A stretch of DNA of 64,000 nt, taken from the NCBI GenBank assembly GCA_033344815.1, contig JAWPMR010000001.1:1164136-1228135 (forward strand), in the 5' to 3' direction. How positions within the stretch are numbered: the first letter of the stretch is position 1; the number at the start of each line of letters is the position of its first letter. The notes under the pieces were generated by a model, which was not told the origin of the DNA, did no database searches, and saw only the letters and a program-made list of their open reading frames with translations. This DNA comes from Paracoccaceae bacterium. Its GTDB lineage: Bacteria; Pseudomonadota; Alphaproteobacteria; Rhodobacterales; Rhodobacteraceae. Shown here piece by piece: positions 7,249 through 14,248 of this stretch. The position numbers were made by a program, and so were the translations under genes.

Positions 7249-8190
7249 ATGTCAGAGACACCTAGCACATTTGAGTTCTTCCAGGAATTCCCAAATGAGC
7301 AATCTGCGCGGAAGTTTTTGAGGCACGCCGTTGGGGTAATGCGCCTGTTTGCGACCACTGCGGTTCCGGTCATGTGTCCGAGCGCAAAGATCACAAGCCT
7401 ATGGCATACCGCTGCATATCTTGCCGTAAGTATTTCAGCGTTCGCACTGGCACAGTTCTTTCCGTAAGCCGCCAATCACTGCAAAAATGGTTGTTGGTTA
7501 TCCACATGCTTACCAGCGCGCGCAAGGGCATCCCAAGCACTCAGATGGCCCGCGAATTGGGCGTCACTCAGAAAACAGCATGGTTCCTTGCGCAGCGTCT
7601 CCGCGAAATGTGGCACAAGGATCAAGATGGTAGCGACATGGGTGAGCATACTCAGGTTGATGAAGCCTATATAGACAGCAAAGAAAGCAACAAGCACGCT
7701 GATAAGAAACTTCCTGCTGGCCGTGGCGCGGTAGGCAAGATTGCCGTTGTCGGGATGCGTGACCAGCACGACCAAGTTCGCGTAAAGCCTGTTGCTAGCA
7801 CAAGCGCCGCGTCTCTGGTGGGCTTTATCGACAACAATGTCCTAGAAGGCGGCACGGTCGTTACCGACGAGTTCTGCTCGTGCAAGGGTCTTGCGGCGCA
7901 GGGATATATGCACAAGACAGTCCGTCAGTCAGTTGGCGAGTATGCGCGCGATATGGCGTACACCAACGGCATTGAAAGCTTCTGGGCGCTGCTAAAACGC
8001 GGTCACTACGGCGTTTATTACCACATGAGCGTCAAGCACTTGCATCGCTAGGTAAACGAGTTCTCATTCCGCCATGACACTTCGGCGGTCTGGAACAATG
8101 GATTTCATCGAAATGATGATTGATCGCATGGTCGAAAAGCCTCTGACCTACAAGGAATTGATTAATGGCTCAGAAGTCCGAAACTATTGA
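7249..8190 (+). pseudogene. IS1595-family transposase (frameshifted)
   Basis: Reading through three frames gives a recognisable IS1595/ISXO2-type transposase. It has the N-terminal FEFFQEFPNEQSARKFL start, a zinc ribbon with CDHCGSGH and CISCRKYF, then the DDE core with QVDEAY, VVTDEF and TNGIESFWALLKRGHYGVYYHMSVKHLHR. Lesions: one base missing near 7320, so the ATG frame leaves the transposase frame; a TAG at 8049-8051 where the family has tyrosine; and a further shift near 8095, after which the C-terminus (MVEKPLTYKELIN) is read in another frame. It cannot make active enzyme. The P63C start at 8165 overlaps its end. Confidence 0.9.
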
Positions 8191-9150
8191 ACCTATTTCC
8201 GACGGTTCGTTTGTCGACGTTGTTGACGCTGTCTTTAGAGGGCAAAGCAGGCCGCGCCCAAAATCCGCGAAAAGCACTCATGAAGGAATACTTCCTCTGG
8301 GCAACATTGATCTCAATGTCGCCGTATTGGAGGACGGTGCAAGAGTCATAAATCAGTCAGCAGTTTTTAAGGCGTTTGGCCATACAAAAAGAGGTCGTGC
8401 GGCAAATGAAATGCGCGTGCCCAATAGGCCTGCGTTTTTGGGTGCAAACAACCTACAACCTATATAAATAAGGACTTAGAGGAGGTGCTCAATATCATCC
8501 CTTATGAAGACTTAAGCGGCTCAGGTGTTGAAGGATATAACACTCTAATCCTTCCTAGGATTTGTCGTGTGTACCTAGACGCCCGCTAAGACGGGAAGCT
8601 ATTGAAGCAACAAGCCCCACTCGCTAGAGCAAGCGAAGTATTGCTACCTGCTCTGGCTGACATCGGCATCACGGCCCTCGTAGATGAGGCTACTTGGTAT
8701 CAGTATGACGGAAATACAGACGCACTCAGACTGCTTCTTTCAAGATACATTGAAGAGGGCCTACAGCGATGGTTGAGAACCTTGCCTGATGATGTCTTTA
8801 AGGAATTAGCAAGACTGTACGGAAACGAAAGTAAGAAATCCCAAAAACGTCCTCAGTACTATGGGCACTTCATTAACAGACACATTTTCGATCCGATTGA
8901 AAGCGGCTTCGTCAAAAACAAGTCGAACGGGTGAATATTGACAACGATGGAAAGCGCAAGGCCCACTTTAACTAGTGGCTCGCTGAGGAAGACCGGACAA
9001 TACTCGTTCACCAAATTTGACGCGTTCAAGGCTTAGTGGAAATGTACTCCAGTATTGAAAATTTAAGAACGCGGCTGATAAGCAAAAGAAGGTGTCAATT
9101 GCGCCTGGTCTCTTTGACAACATGAACGACCCTATGCCATGCCGCTAAGC
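8165..9150 (+). pseudogene. P63C-domain passenger gene (degenerate)
   Basis: Conceptual translation across frames matches the P63C-domain family. Recognisable blocks are VAVLEDGARVINQSAVFKAFG and RPAFLGANNLQPI, then PRICRVYLDAR, LPALADIGITALVDEATWYQ, KRPQYYGHFINRHIF and KAHFN-stop-WLAEED. Stops or shifts occur at 8465 (TAA), 8587 (TAA), 8932 (TGA) and beyond. The ATG at 8165 overlaps the transposase C-terminus, so the two were probably coupled. P63C proteins are of unknown function and commonly associated with mobile elements. The 3' boundary is approximate because the last 200 bp are heavily eroded. Confidence 0.75.
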
Positions 9151-9199
9151 TCGATGCTGCCCGTGAGTTTTTTTGGATGCTCACCACCGTTTGCCCTAC

Positions 9200-9222
9200 G
9201 GCTAGTTACGTGTATCGGTCCC
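9200..9222 (-). repeat. right terminal inverted repeat of the IS1595-like element
   Basis: Ends GGTCCC and starts GGCTAGTT. It is the inverted partner of 7164-7186, with three mismatches, and is followed directly by the target-duplication copy ATAATTTG. Confidence 0.85.
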
Positions 9223-9307
9223 ATAATTTGGATAAACAATCACGGACGATCACTTGCACCTTGCCGCCCTGCGTTTAAGCTATTCTTGGAACGAATGGAG
9301 GAAAACC

Positions 9308-10060
9308 ATGTCGCTGAAAGGCAAACACGCGCTGGTCACAGGCGGTGGTACGGGGATCGGACTCGCGATTGCTAAGGATCTGGCCGCGCTCGGATGTACC
9401 GTGACCATAACAGGTCGGCGCCAAGACGTGCTGGATAGCGTGGCCAGTGATCGGATTTTTGGCATGACAATGGATGTACGTGATGAGGCAAGCGTTGTGA
9501 CCAGCATCGCGGCAGCGGTCGATGCCCACGGGCCGATTCAGATTTGCATCGCAAATGCCGGCATCGCGGAAGGGCGCGCAGTGCATAAAACCGACATGGA
9601 ATTCTGGCGCAATATGATGTCGACCAATCTGGATGGTGCTTTTCTGACCATCCGCGAAGCATTGAAATCCATGCGCCAGACGGATTGGGGCCGTGTTATC
9701 GCTGTGTCATCCATCGCAGGATTGCGTGGTTTGCAAGGTGCGGCCTGCTACTCCGCGTCCAAGCACGGCATGATCGGGCTCATCAGGGCTTTGAGCGAAG
9801 ACTATCTGGGCAAGTCCATCACTTTTAACGCACTCTGCCCTGCATATGTTGACACTGCAATTGTGGAGCGCAACACAAGCTCGATTTCGGCCCGCGCGGG
9901 CATTGACGCGGAAAAAGCAAAGGCGATCATGGTATCCGCCAACCGGCACAATCGTTTAATTGCGCCTGAAGAAGTCTCTGCCGCGGCGGTTTGGCTTGTC
10001 TCCAAAGGGTCTGAAAGCATCAACGGACAATCCATAGAAATTGCAGGTGGGCAAATGTAG
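9308..10060 (+). CDS. short-chain dehydrogenase/reductase
   Basis: 250-residue NAD(P)-dependent oxidoreductase of the classical SDR family. It has the cofactor motif GGGTGIGLA near residues 12-20, NAG in the IANAG segment near 87, the catalytic YSASK with an upstream serine (SSIAG), and an SDR C-terminus with INGQSIEIAGG. ATG 9308 follows a GGAGG ribosome site; the frame is open further upstream but without support. The pattern resembles 3-hydroxybutyrate/3-oxoacyl reductase-like SDRs, though the substrate cannot be assigned. It is a single gene, with the IS element just upstream and a REP-like palindrome 12 bp past its stop. Confidence 0.85.
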   Translation: MSLKGKHALVTGGGTGIGLAIAKDLAALGCTVTITGRRQDVLDSVASDRIFGMTMDVRDEASVVTSIAAAVDAHGPIQICIANAGIAEGRAVHKTDMEFWRNMMSTNLDGAFLTIREALKSMRQTDWGRVIAVSSIAGLRGLQGAACYSASKHGMIGLIRALSEDYLGKSITFNALCPAYVDTAIVERNTSSISARAGIDAEKAKAIMVSANRHNRLIAPEEVSAAAVWLVSKGSESINGQSIEIAGGQM

Positions 10061-10071
10061 CCGATCAAAAG

Positions 10072-10130
10072 GGTGGCCTGAAAGCCCACCCTACGGCGCG
10101 AACACAGGTAGGGTGGGCTTTCAGGCCACC
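10072..10130. repeat. perfect 23-bp inverted repeat, REP-like
   Basis: Arms 10072-10094 and 10108-10130 are perfectly complementary over 23 bp around a 13-nt loop. The right arm begins GTAGGGTGGGC, a sequence typical of dispersed REP-type palindromes in Proteobacteria. It lies 12 bp after the SDR stop and 43 bp before the RAYT-like gene. There is no T-run, so it is not a standard terminator, though it could stabilise the SDR transcript. Confidence 0.85.
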
Positions 10131-10173
10131 GTTGTTCAACATCCATTAACCACGGCTGCGCTACCATAAGGCT

Positions 10174-10719
10174 ATGTCGAACTACATCCGATCCAAAACG
10201 CCGGGCGCGACCTACTTCTTCACGGCATGTCTTGCTGATCGCAAAAGTACTTTGCTGACCGATCGGGTCGACTTGCTTCGCACGGCGACCCGCCTGACGC
10301 TGCAAAGATATCCCTTCTCCATCGACGCGATTATCATTTTACCAGCAAGCATTCAGACGATTTGGACGCTGCCCGAGGGAGATGCCGATTACAGCACAAG
10401 ATGGAGTTTTCTGAAAAGCACCTTTTCCAGAGCGCTTCCTGCATCGCAGACCCGAACTGCCGTGCAAACATGCAGAAAAGAAAAGGGGATTTGGCAGAGG
10501 CGCTTTTGGGAGCATCGGATCAGGTCTGCGCGGGATTTGGCTTTGTACCGTAACCTCATTCACACCGCGCCGGTTCAGGCAGGTTTGGTTGACGCGCCGT
10601 CGGATTGGGCATGGACGTCGCTACATCGCGAATTGTTGGCGTCACATCGGACAGCGAACCCGCTAGTTCCGAGACGCCTCAGTGCACTAAAACAGAATGT
10701 CAAAAATCCGGCGGTCTAA
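10174..10719 (+). CDS. REP-associated tyrosine transposase (RAYT) homolog lacking catalytic residues
   Basis: 181 residues with a clear RAYT/Y1-transposase scaffold: MSNY-RS-TPGATYFFT at the N-terminus, PEGDADYSTRW and IWQRRFWEHRIR in the middle. RAYTs cut REP hairpins with an HUH motif and a tyrosine. Here the usual PDHLH is PASIQ, so both histidines are Ser59 and Gln61. The usual YIHxNPVK is LIHTAPVQ, with Leu128 in place of tyrosine. The frame is intact throughout and sits beside a perfect REP-like palindrome. It is therefore either a domesticated protein or a very early pseudogene. Convergent with the amidotransferase gene, 12 bp apart. Confidence 0.85.
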   Translation: MSNYIRSKTPGATYFFTACLADRKSTLLTDRVDLLRTATRLTLQRYPFSIDAIIILPASIQTIWTLPEGDADYSTRWSFLKSTFSRALPASQTRTAVQTCRKEKGIWQRRFWEHRIRSARDLALYRNLIHTAPVQAGLVDAPSDWAWTSLHRELLASHRTANPLVPRRLSALKQNVKNPAV

Positions 10720-10731
10720 AAGGCGCGGTTG

Positions 10732-11508
10732 TTATGCAACCTGTGTGACAGGAAGCGTTTGTCCTTTGGACCACGCACGCGCCGCCTCGCCAAAAGCTGC
10801 AAAAAGAGGCTTGGACACGGGATCCCGGGCCGCAGCATACTCCGGATGCCACTGAACAGACAGGGTGAACCCCGGCGCTCCGTCTATGTAAATCGCTTCA
10901 GGGGTTCCATCTGGTGCCACACCATCCACAATGACTCGCGCGCCAGAGGATTTGATCCCCTGTCCGTGCAGCGTATTGGTCATCACCTCGCGCGCGCCCG
11001 TCAATTTGTGAAACACGCCATTGTCGGTAAAGGAGACCGTGTGGCGATGTTCGAATTTCTCTTCCAACGTACCATCCGGCGGCATTCGGTGGTTCATCCG
11101 GCCCGGCAAATCTCTGATCTCGGGATAGAGCGACCCACCCATCGCGACATTCACTTCTTGAAAACCACGGCAAATTCCCAAAAACGGTTGGCCTCGCTCC
11201 ACACATGCGCGTACCAGAGGCAGAGCGATGGCATCGCGCGCGCGGTCAAATTGACCGTGAGCGTCCGTCGCCGCCTCTCCATATTCCTCTGGATGAACAT
11301 TTGGACGCCCACCTGTAAACAAAAAACCGTCACAGGTGGTAAGCAATTCTTCAACTGACACATAGTCCGGATTCGTCGGTATCATTATTGGCAAACACTC
11401 TGAAACGTCGGCAATCGCTTCGGAGTTCATTGTGCCACCGGCATGCACGGGGTATTCATCGTTCAACAAATAGTGGTTGCATATTATACCAACAACGGGC
11501 CGCGCCAT
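10732..11508 (-). CDS. class-I glutamine amidotransferase, PuuD-like (peptidase C26)
   Basis: 258 residues. Gamma-glutamyl-gamma-aminobutyrate hydrolase/GATase1-like family. The nucleophile elbow GICRGFQEVNVAMGG and the SVQWHPEYA histidine-glutamate motif supply a Cys-His-Glu triad. The family hydrolyses gamma-glutamyl amides such as gamma-glutamyl-GABA in polyamine use, but no puu genes are adjacent, so the substrate is open. ATG 11508 has a GAGGGA site about six bases upstream and was preferred over an in-frame start at 11523. Confidence 0.85.
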   Translation of the reverse strand: MARPVVGIICNHYLLNDEYPVHAGGTMNSEAIADVSECLPIMIPTNPDYVSVEELLTTCDGFLFTGGRPNVHPEEYGEAATDAHGQFDRARDAIALPLVRACVERGQPFLGICRGFQEVNVAMGGSLYPEIRDLPGRMNHRMPPDGTLEEKFEHRHTVSFTDNGVFHKLTGAREVMTNTLHGQGIKSSGARVIVDGVAPDGTPEAIYIDGAPGFTLSVQWHPEYAAARDPVSKPLFAAFGEAARAWSKGQTLPVTQVA

Positions 11509-11623
11509 CTGTGTCCCTCTCAACCATCTTTTGTATCTCTATAACATGCACTCAATGGGTTAACAGCCCATGACCGCGCAGACGTCTGTGCGCAGACGCT
11601 CATTGCCTTCCAGTGCCCAGATT

Positions 11624-12049
11624 TTAGGCCTCAGCCACAAGTCCCGCAGCATCGATCCCCGCAAGCCCAGCAATGACGTCATTGTCCGACGTGTCACCAG
11701 TAATTCCCACCGCGCCAATCACCGCACCCTTTTTGTCGCGCAACAGGATGCCGCCTGGGACTGGTACCAGTTTACCGTCAAAGGCGGCGTTCACCGCGTT
11801 GATAAAATAGGCCTGGCTTTCTGCCCGCGCCATTTGGGCGGAACTGGGAATGCCCAACATGACGGCGCCATAGGCTTTGCCATGTGCTACAGCAAAGCGG
11901 CCAGGGGATGCCCCGTCTTCGCGTTCGAAAGCCTGCACGTGCCCACCTGCATCCAACACAACGACGGATAGCGGCTTCAATTCCAATTCGCGTCCTTTTG
12001 CGAGGGTTTTGCGGATGATCGTGCGGGCTTTGTTCAGTGAAATTGTCAT
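11624..12049 (-). CDS. GlcG/HbpS family protein (DUF336)
   Basis: 141 residues matching the GlcG/HbpS fold throughout: LSVVVLDAGGHVQAFERED, SPGRFAVAHGKAYGAV, and GGILLRDKKGAVIGAVGITG. Members bind haem or cobalamin-like ligands, or are encoded in glycolate operons without a defined reaction. It lies 57 bp downstream of malate synthase G on the same strand, the classical glcB-glcG association, so a role linked to glycolate/glyoxylate use is likely. Confidence 0.85.
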   Translation of the reverse strand: MTISLNKARTIIRKTLAKGRELELKPLSVVVLDAGGHVQAFEREDGASPGRFAVAHGKAYGAVMLGIPSSAQMARAESQAYFINAVNAAFDGKLVPVPGGILLRDKKGAVIGAVGITGDTSDNDVIAGLAGIDAAGLVAEA

Positions 12050-12106: not shown

Positions 12107-14248
12107 TCACCGGGCCGCTTTAAGTTCCAATCGCCGCGCGTGCAAAACCGGCTCTGTATACCCCGAAGGCTGTGTGCGTCCCTTGAAAACAAGGTCGCAG
12201 GCCGCCTGAAACGCAATCCCGTCATATCCCGGTGCCATAGGCTGATAAAGCGGATCGCCCGCGTTCTGACCATCCACCACTTCGGCCATTTTACGCATAG
12301 CCTGCATGACGGCCTGCCCGTCCACCACACCGTGATGCAGCCAGTTGGCGATGTGTTGCGCGGAAATGCGGCACGTGGCGCGATCTTCCATCAGGCCGAC
12401 GTTATTCATGTCGAGCACTTTGGAACATCCAACGCCCTGATCCACCCATCGCACAACATACCCCAGAATCCCCTGCGCGTTATTTTCGACTTCACGCTGT
12501 TTCTGTGCGTCGGTCCACTTTTGGTATTCTGCCAGCGGAATATTCAGCACCGTATCGACATATGCGCGTCGCCCGCCTTTCTTGAGTTTCGCCTGCACAT
12601 CAAACACGTTGATCTTGTGGTAATGCAGCGCGTGCAGGGTGGCCGCGGTCGGACTTGGCACCCAAGCACAATTCGCACCCGATTTGGGGTGTTCGATTTT
12701 TTGTTCCAGCATGGCGGCCATCAGATCCGGCATGGCCCACATGCCTTTGCCGATCTGCGCGCGTCCCGACAACCCACATTCGAGCCCGATGTCCACGTTC
12801 TGATTCTCATATGCACCGATCCAGGTTTTGCGTTTGATGAAGTCTTTACGACTGAACGGTCCGGCTTCCATTGATGTGTGGATCTCATCGCCCGTGCGGT
12901 CCAGAAACCCTGTGTTGATGAAGGCCACGCGCGATTTCGCCGCCCGGATGCATTCCTTGAGATTAACCGATGTGCGGCGCTCTTCATCCATGATGCCCAA
13001 TTTTACAGTATACTGCGGCAGGCCCAGAATATCCTCGACGCGACCGAAAATGCGATCAGCAAAGGCAACTTCTTCCGGCCCGTGCATCTTGGGTTTTACA
13101 ACGTAAACCGATCCGGTCAGCGAATTGCCGCCATCCCGGGAAAGGTCATGCATCGCGATCAACGTAGTGATCATCGCATCCATCACACCTTCAAAAACCT
13201 CATTGCCGTCCTTATCGCGGATCGCCGGATTGGTCATCAGATGGCCAACATTGCGCACAAGCATCAGCGCGCGCCCTTTCAAGGTCACTTTCATCCCATC
13301 CGGGCCTGTGTACGCGCGGTCGGGATTGAGCGCACGCGTGATCTGCTTGCCAGCCTTTTCGAAACTGTCCTGCAGATCGCCTTTCATCAAACCGAGCCAA
13401 TTGGCATAAGCGACAACTTTGTCCTCAGCATCCACGCAGGCCACGGAATCCTCGCAGTCCATAATGGCAGAGATGGCGCTCTCCATCCGAACATCGGCCA
13501 GCCCGGCCTGATCCCGGCTGCCAATGGGATGCGTCCGGTCAAAAACCAGTTCCACATGCAACCCATTGTTGCACAAAACAATGCGCTCCGGCGCTTTCGG
13601 GTGACCCGTGTAGCCAACGAATTTTGCAGGATCGATCAGAGGCTGGTCATCCATCAGCAATGCGCCATTGTGCACATAATAACGCCGTGTGTCGGCATGG
13701 CTGGTTTTCACAATGGGGAAGGCTTCGTCCAGAAACACCCGCGCACGTGCGACGACCCGCGCACCACGACCCTGATCATACCCTCCCTTGGGCGGCGCGC
13801 TGCCCATCACGTCCGTGCCATAAAATCCGTCATAAAGGCTGCCCCAGCGCGCATTTGCCGCGTTCAACGCGTATCGCGCATTGGTAATCGGAACCACCAG
13901 CTGCGGGCCCGGCACCCGGGCGATTTCGTCATCCACGTTAGCGGTATCAATCTCAAATGCCTCCCCCTCGGGCACCAGATAGCCGATCTCGCGCAAGAAC
14001 GCGCAATAAGCTTCATGATCATGGGGGTGGCACCGGCGTTCGACGTGCCATGCGTCTATCTGCGCCTGAATGTCTTCACGCTGTTGCAACAAGGCGCGGT
14101 TTTCGGGTGCTGCATCGTTCACCAAAGCCGAGAAACCTGACCAGAACGTCGCGGGGTCGACCCCGGTGCCGTGCAAGGCCTCATTCTCAATGAAGTGCGC
14201 CAGGTTGTCCGCGACCTGAATATCATTTTTCTGAATAAACTCAGCCAT
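12107..14248 (-). CDS. glcB: malate synthase G
   Basis: 713 residues, close to the ~720 of malate synthase G. It condenses glyoxylate with acetyl-CoA to malate. The acidic catalytic/metal segment [16 protein letters not shown], the [20 protein letters not shown] block and the [10 protein letters not shown] segment are all characteristic. The long G-isoform insertion after the N-terminus is present. Expected to be cytosolic and induced on C2 substrates. It is followed by glcG in the same direction. No isocitrate lyase gene is in the window. Confidence 0.96.

Follow-up and report, generated by a model that had tools for sequence, protein, structure and literature searches.

A RAYT-family protein with its catalytic residues replaced, and the REP hairpins that accompany it in Roseobacter

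What becomes of a transposase-family gene whose catalytic residues are gone, and of the hairpins that lie beside it? The question is raised by a 64,000-nucleotide stretch of DNA, hereafter the window, from a Roseobacter genome (Paracoccaceae bacterium, GCA_033344815.1, contig JAWPMR010000001.1, positions 1,164,136 to 1,228,135), which holds a gene of the RAYT (REP-associated tyrosine transposase) family and, upstream of it, a REPIN, a pair of inverted repetitive extragenic palindromic (REP) sequences. Our analysis suggests that a formerly mobile system has become a lasting part of the cell: Roseobacter and many relatives retain the disarmed RAYT, and in many Roseobacter species the REPs look fixed just past gene ends. 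The existence of a selected, disarmed RAYT clade is well supported, and the window protein may be a DNA-binding, non-cutting regulator or chromosome-structuring protein. The elements in question are the following.

10072..10130, no strand assigned: REPIN, two inverted REPs (arms 10072-10094 and 10108-10130, loop 10095-10107)
10174..10719, plus strand: disarmed RAYT of the APVxAG subfamily, 181 aa, open frame without internal stop
10348..10356, plus strand: former HUH motif, Ser59-Ile60-Gln61, placed by alignments
10555..10569, plus strand: former nucleophile tyrosine (Leu128) to third metal ligand asparagine (Ala132), placed by alignments

A disarmed RAYT clade under selection

The window protein matches the NCBIfam profile NF047646 (REP_Tyr_transpos) over residues 3-147 with 144.8 bits against a cut-off of 80. 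This profile match, a predicted TnpA-REP fold and flanking REPs that recur genome-wide make it a RAYT by descent; a Pfam search of the protein gave no match, and the Y1_Tnp profile had none anywhere in the window's genome. Aligned with Escherichia coli TnpA-REP (4er8), it carries Ser59, Gln61, Leu128 and Ala132 in place of His59, His61, Tyr115 and Asn119, the last of which is described as the third metal ligand in the part of PMC6006769 used here. The residue set of an active Y1 HUH enzyme (HUH histidines, tyrosine, and Asn or Gln as third ligand) is absent from it. The tag-region residues W94, Q95, E100, H101 and R104 that the same part of PMC6006769 gives for the E. coli protein correspond to W107, Q108, E113, H114 and R117 and are mostly retained. 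Profile, predicted fold and alignment thus bear out the first-pass annotation, which had described an intact RAYT scaffold with replaced catalytic residues.

One homologue each was found in 10 of the 18 other Roseobacter genomes, so that, window included, the REP_Tyr_transpos profile has exactly one match above its cut-off in 11 of 19; no other RAYT exceeded the cut-off in these 11 genomes, G004 having eight weaker matches. All 11 frames are open, with no stop. Tyrosine is replaced by leucine and asparagine by alanine in every one, and the first histidine by Ala, Ser or Thr, while the second histidine is retained in 10 and Gln61 occurs in the window alone. Codon models gave an omega of 0.097 for the 11 genes and rejected omega = 1 (2dlnL 797); three neighbour genes gave 0.065, 0.038 and 0.047. 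Pairwise dS values above 1 were saturated and were left unused. The suggested dN/dS test therefore showed purifying selection, and neither of the outcomes named beforehand as refuting, frameshifted orthologs or dN/dS near 1, occurred. As to the proposed conservation of Ser59, Gln61 and Leu128, it held for Leu128 and, as a replaced first histidine, for position 59, and failed for Gln61. Decay or a sequencing error was rejected on the 11 concordant homologues and the low omega.

Beyond the genus, the profile search covered 394 genomes of the family and had matches in 125. Loci were drawn from the best 30 matches. These are the window's match plus 29 more, of which one was already in the set, and the numbers given here for other genera are therefore not frequencies. 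With the earlier loci, those drawn here yielded an alignment of 53 proteins, the fragments L054, L056 and L058 being dropped. With the four motif columns masked, the 26 RAYTs bearing APVxAG or a near variant, 11 from Roseobacter and 15 from other genera (16 genera in all), formed one clade (100/97, bootstrap unsettled). In this clade the asparagine column holds Ala in 25 proteins and Ser in one; the tyrosine column holds L, M, F, V or Q in 25, with Tyr in L267 alone; the first histidine is replaced in 22, being present in L259, L265, L266 and L267; and the second histidine is present in all but the window protein. The same SDR-family and/or C26-type neighbours flank seven of the 15 members from other genera (L255, L256, L257, L260, L261, L262 and L273) and none of 14 other loci tested. 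Such shared neighbours point to an ancient disarmed RAYT, passed on vertically at least in part. The losses of catalytic residues are clade-wide and old, not early decay. The first-pass annotation had rightly doubted such decay, given the disarmed state of all 11 Roseobacter homologues and their omega; its picture of three targeted substitutions in one gene was not supported, the losses being spread across the clade and Gln61 peculiar to the window.

Sporadic catalytic losses were also seen outside the APVxAG clade, in L272 (QHIL), L280 (HHHN), L053 (HHWN) and L052 (HHFD); the motif loss in L272 is separate from that of the clade.

The surrounding genes form a conserved locus.

9308..10060, plus strand: SDR-family gene, conserved upstream neighbour, with its stop just before the REPIN
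10732..11508, minus strand: conserved downstream neighbour, presumably of C26 type (gamma-glutamyl-GABA hydrolase-like), scoring 133 bits where the curated NCBIfam cut-off is 266
11624..12049, minus strand: gene that we take to be GlcG-like, with a weak NCBIfam match
12107..14248, minus strand: malate synthase G gene

The RAYT lies between the SDR and C26-type genes in all 11 Roseobacter carriers, and eight Roseobacter genomes have the two genes without a RAYT. At the G010 locus (L105) 517 bp separate them, more than in the other RAYT-free genomes; this gap gave no RAYT match and no remnant by eye. A frame for an IS1595-family transposase (NF033547, 146.1 bits) lies upstream of the locus at window positions 7401-8051.

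REP hairpins at gene 3' ends

The perfect 23-bp inverted repeat with its 13-nt loop, reported earlier as lying 43 bp upstream of the gene, is exact and ends 43 bp before the RAYT ATG. Folded as single-stranded DNA it reaches -29.7 kcal/mol, a value equalled by none of 200 shuffles. The recommended genome scan for copies showed that the repeat is not accidental and uncovered a genome-wide REP set: at up to three mismatches, GTAGGGTGGGCTTTCAGGCC has 27 matches in the window's genome, both arms included, against two for a reversed control. Each arm is itself one REP, made up of a tag and a hairpin that contains a G.G mismatch. The palindrome as a whole is thus a REPIN of two inverted REPs with a spacer, able to form a hairpin and repeated across the genome. 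It begins directly after the stop codon of the SDR gene (10060) and is therefore also the 3' end of that gene. An Rfam search of window positions 9000-12000 gave no match. A hairpin lies upstream of the RAYT in eight of the 11 carriers; in the REPINs upstream of L034 and L035 both arms are one base shorter in step and still mutually complementary.

At up to two mismatches, the REP 20-mer has 26-65 matches in each of eight RAYT-bearing genomes, which we group as clade I (G000, G004), clade IIa (G002, G016, G008) and clade IIb (G015, G006, G012), and 0-1 in the eight RAYT-free Roseobacter genomes. Sites were compared over up to 20 kb around listed REP sites, completely for G000, G004 and G016, without C4:238728 and C13:3511 for G002, and in part for G008. 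With one-base loop variants allowed, 197 REPs at 148 sites fell into 59 orthologous groups, 23 of them common to clades I and IIa, and 21 of the 23 G000 sites also occur in G004. Twenty-four groups of clade I and 12 of clade IIa were unmatched in the opposite clade; where both flanks of such a site were located and free of a REP, most looked replaced or eroded. One clean difference was found, a 34-bp REP presence/absence in alignable DNA (L138 near 9997 in G004; L157 4333-4399 in G000), which is a gain or loss postdating the disarming of the RAYT. At 16 sites shared by G004 and G016, identity was 0.99 in the 16-base core, a value partly conditioned on the sites having been found through that core, and 0.29-0.45 in the ungapped flanks. 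The Roseobacter REPs look fixed rather than mobile.

Their positions point to gene 3' ends. Scored in one genome per group, with open reading frames (ORFs) called by a simple script and not a gene finder, 28 of the 59 groups lie between tandem and 22 between convergent genes, three between divergent genes, four inside an ORF call and two at an edge. Within the 50 tandem and convergent groups, 48 lie at most 30 bp from a stop codon (median 7) and 39 at most 15 nt. A REPIN marks the 3' end of the same gene, presumably encoding a phosphatidylcholine synthase-like protein, in all eight REP-rich genomes; the corresponding 3' end lacks one in G014, G005, G007 and, among the RAYT-free genomes, in G010 and six of the other seven; the G013 site was excluded from this count with its frame broken. 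In trees of one or two regions the RAYT-free G010 falls within clade II or next to it; a grouping of all REP-rich genomes, eight in number, into a single clade was rejected (AU test, 9e-7, two regions only). REPs seem to have been lost in G010 along with the RAYT.

The 5' context of the tag differs by clade. CAG directly precedes it in 94 of 100 clade IIa REPs and in one of 96 in clade I, and within the 23 shared groups a G at -5 is found in all clade IIa copies, while in 18 groups it is missing from every clade I copy. Conservation of tag bases 3 and 4 has been lost in clade IIb alone. Of the 44 REPs in that clade, 42 pair position -1 with position +19 (19.5 expected; 0 of 5000 shuffles as high). 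No such excess appears in clade I (35 of 80; 30.3 expected) or clade IIa (25 of 76; 24.7 expected). In these counts related copies and the two arms of one REPIN are not independent. The idea that every disarmed lineage has an entirely eroded tag was rejected for clades I and IIa, GTA being invariant in 80 clade I and 76 clade IIa REPs, counted with two-mismatch matches pre-filtered for GTA.

Outside Roseobacter, the tag varies with the type of RAYT. We scanned 250 bp on each side of RAYT genes for GTAN followed by a perfect 6-bp stem; shuffled flanks gave about 0.5 matches. Intact RAYTs had GTAG 40 times and GTAA once (18 of 23 loci), and disarmed RAYTs GTAA 15 times and GTAG twice (eight of 26 loci, all outside Roseobacter). 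Matches that share a hairpin or an array do not count as independent, and all disarmed loci belong to a single clade. Roseobacter REP stems hold a mismatch, and no tagged perfect-stem hairpin lies beside the Roseobacter RAYTs. In G399, a genome of another genus, 32 sites match the generic REP pattern exactly, 21 of them as GTAAGGCGGGCGTGTCGCCCGCC, and a REPIN lies immediately upstream of its disarmed RAYT. This genome, with its many GTAA REPs, also has a second RAYT match with an internal stop (G399:C14:47282-47641), which may once have spread the G399 REPs.

A proposed resident hairpin reader and its rivals

On balance we favour a RAYT descendant that binds hairpins without cutting them, together with fixed REP sites at gene 3' ends. 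We infer the binding, the absence of cutting, the order of losses and any effect on genes. A RAYT would have settled beside an SDR gene before several genera of Roseobacter's family diverged, and would apparently have lost its metal-binding asparagine, then the tyrosine nucleophile and then the first histidine, after which it may have been retained as a cell protein. Most likely TnpA-REP-folded, it would bind single-stranded REP hairpins at their foot and stem and serve as their reader or guard. The Roseobacter REPs would have become largely fixed hairpins just past stop codons, acting on gene 3' ends through termination, the mRNA end or translation.

A fuller version joins a clade-wide, non-cutting, sequence-specific hairpin reader, REP sites at stop codons, co-evolution of reader and sites, and a regulon made from a tamed transposon. 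We hold this combination tentatively, at somewhat under even chances. Within it, the recognised 5' end would have slid outward (CCGTA, GCAGGTA, GCAGGT-NN) in concert at tens of sites, and the cutting tag would have changed from GTAG to GTAA in other genera. For the concerted 5' change we favour a shifted preference of a trans-acting reader. If true, a post-transcriptional or nucleoid regulon would have been derived from a tamed transposon.

Several observations weigh against these readings. G014, G005 and G007 carry the RAYT with three, zero and zero matches to the REP 20-mer, and in G014 two sites match the generic pattern, one being the REP consensus; REPs seem to have been lost there almost entirely, and wholly in G005 and G007, with the RAYT retained. 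Dependence on REPs is accordingly not absolute, and the protein may act without these REPs. L267 has both histidines and the tyrosine. The concerted 5' change could also come from gene conversion or palindrome correction, with REP copies correcting each other. A tagged perfect-stem hairpin accompanies only eight of the 26 disarmed loci, the tag difference sets one clade against the rest and may reflect a single event, and many generic-pattern matches occurred in G399 alone among 13 other-genus genomes with a disarmed RAYT. Roseobacter tags, counted in REPs required to have GT, are mixed (clade I, GTAA 52 and GTAG 44; clade IIa, GTAG 76 and GTAA 24), so the GTAA rule fails in that genus. For E. 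coli TnpA, the closest solved relative, the part of PMC8266576 drawn on here reports that any change in GTAG abolishes both binding and cleavage. Strand-specific RNA binding as a mode of action found no support: of the single REPs between tandem genes, seven are in sense and 10 in antisense orientation, which shows no bias for either strand.

The RAYT might instead be kept for a role unrelated to REPs, and the REPs independently as hairpins at gene 3' ends, whether as terminators, as mRNA ends or as regulators of translation. We regard this as rather unlikely, roughly one chance in a few. It would suit the three genomes almost without REPs, whose RAYTs are still under selection (omega 0.103 across the three), and the position of 39 of the 50 scored sites, no more than 15 nt from a stop codon; E. 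coli REPs less than 16 nt from a stop are reported to lower translation in the section of PMC12306157 cited here. It sits poorly with the near absence of REPs from all eight RAYT-free genomes, including G010 in or beside a REP-bearing clade, and with the RAYT-dependent tag outside Roseobacter. Low-rate REP movement, through residual RAYT activity or another enzyme, with the 5' change reflecting copy turnover, appears improbable. The 34-bp difference, the clade-specific 5' context and the Y1 transposases of another type in G004 (11 matches, 10 above cut-off; G015 has a fragment) speak for it, and the sites shared by G000 and G004, the 23 groups common to both clades, the replaced metal ligands and nucleophile, and the lack of another above-cut-off RAYT in the 11 carriers speak against it. 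Slow decay, with a RAYT in the course of being lost and REPs left as fossils, we consider very improbable: the RAYT is missing from eight of 19 genomes, REPs are nearly or wholly gone from three carriers and tyrosine losses recur outside the clade (L052, L053, L280), but the 11 genes are open and constrained, the asparagine loss is common to 26 proteins from 16 genera, and REP cores stand intact amid diverged flanks.

Comparison with known RAYT systems

In the open-licence literature searched, no report of catalytically dead RAYTs was found among the results listed. A superfamily survey excluded sequences without core motifs, judging them probably non-functional (PMC6006769, section 8); the APVxAG clade shows strong selection on at least some RAYTs that lack such motifs. 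E. coli TnpA-REP, with two histidines, a tyrosine and an asparagine, cuts, whereas the window protein has Ser, Gln, Leu and Ala at these places, and Roseobacter REPs carry GTAG or GTAA tags preceded by bases that differ by clade. Another parallel is S. maltophilia TnpA, for which the portion of PMC8266576 used here describes changes at tag bases 3 and 4 that stop cleavage and not binding; the favoured reader would likewise tolerate tag changes that block cutting. That enzyme, however, is described there as an active nuclease of another RAYT group, while the changes in the Roseobacter gene and REPs point to lost cutting.

The Pseudomonas REPIN-RAYT system, as presented in the cited parts of PMC3116915 and PMC8049555, resembles the present one in its hairpin-forming REP doublets, single-copy RAYT and vertical inheritance. 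By that account the Pseudomonas RAYTs actively replicate REPINs, though at very low rates; the 11 Roseobacter carriers yielded no intact RAYT, and many REP sites are common to diverged species. The model set out in the part of PMC8049555 considered here explains the persistence of REPINs by an active RAYT that copies them rarely and by a small, discounting host benefit. In Roseobacter copying is apparently off, yet several species retain both the protein and the REPs, which makes the benefit of a REP/RAYT pair testable without transposition.
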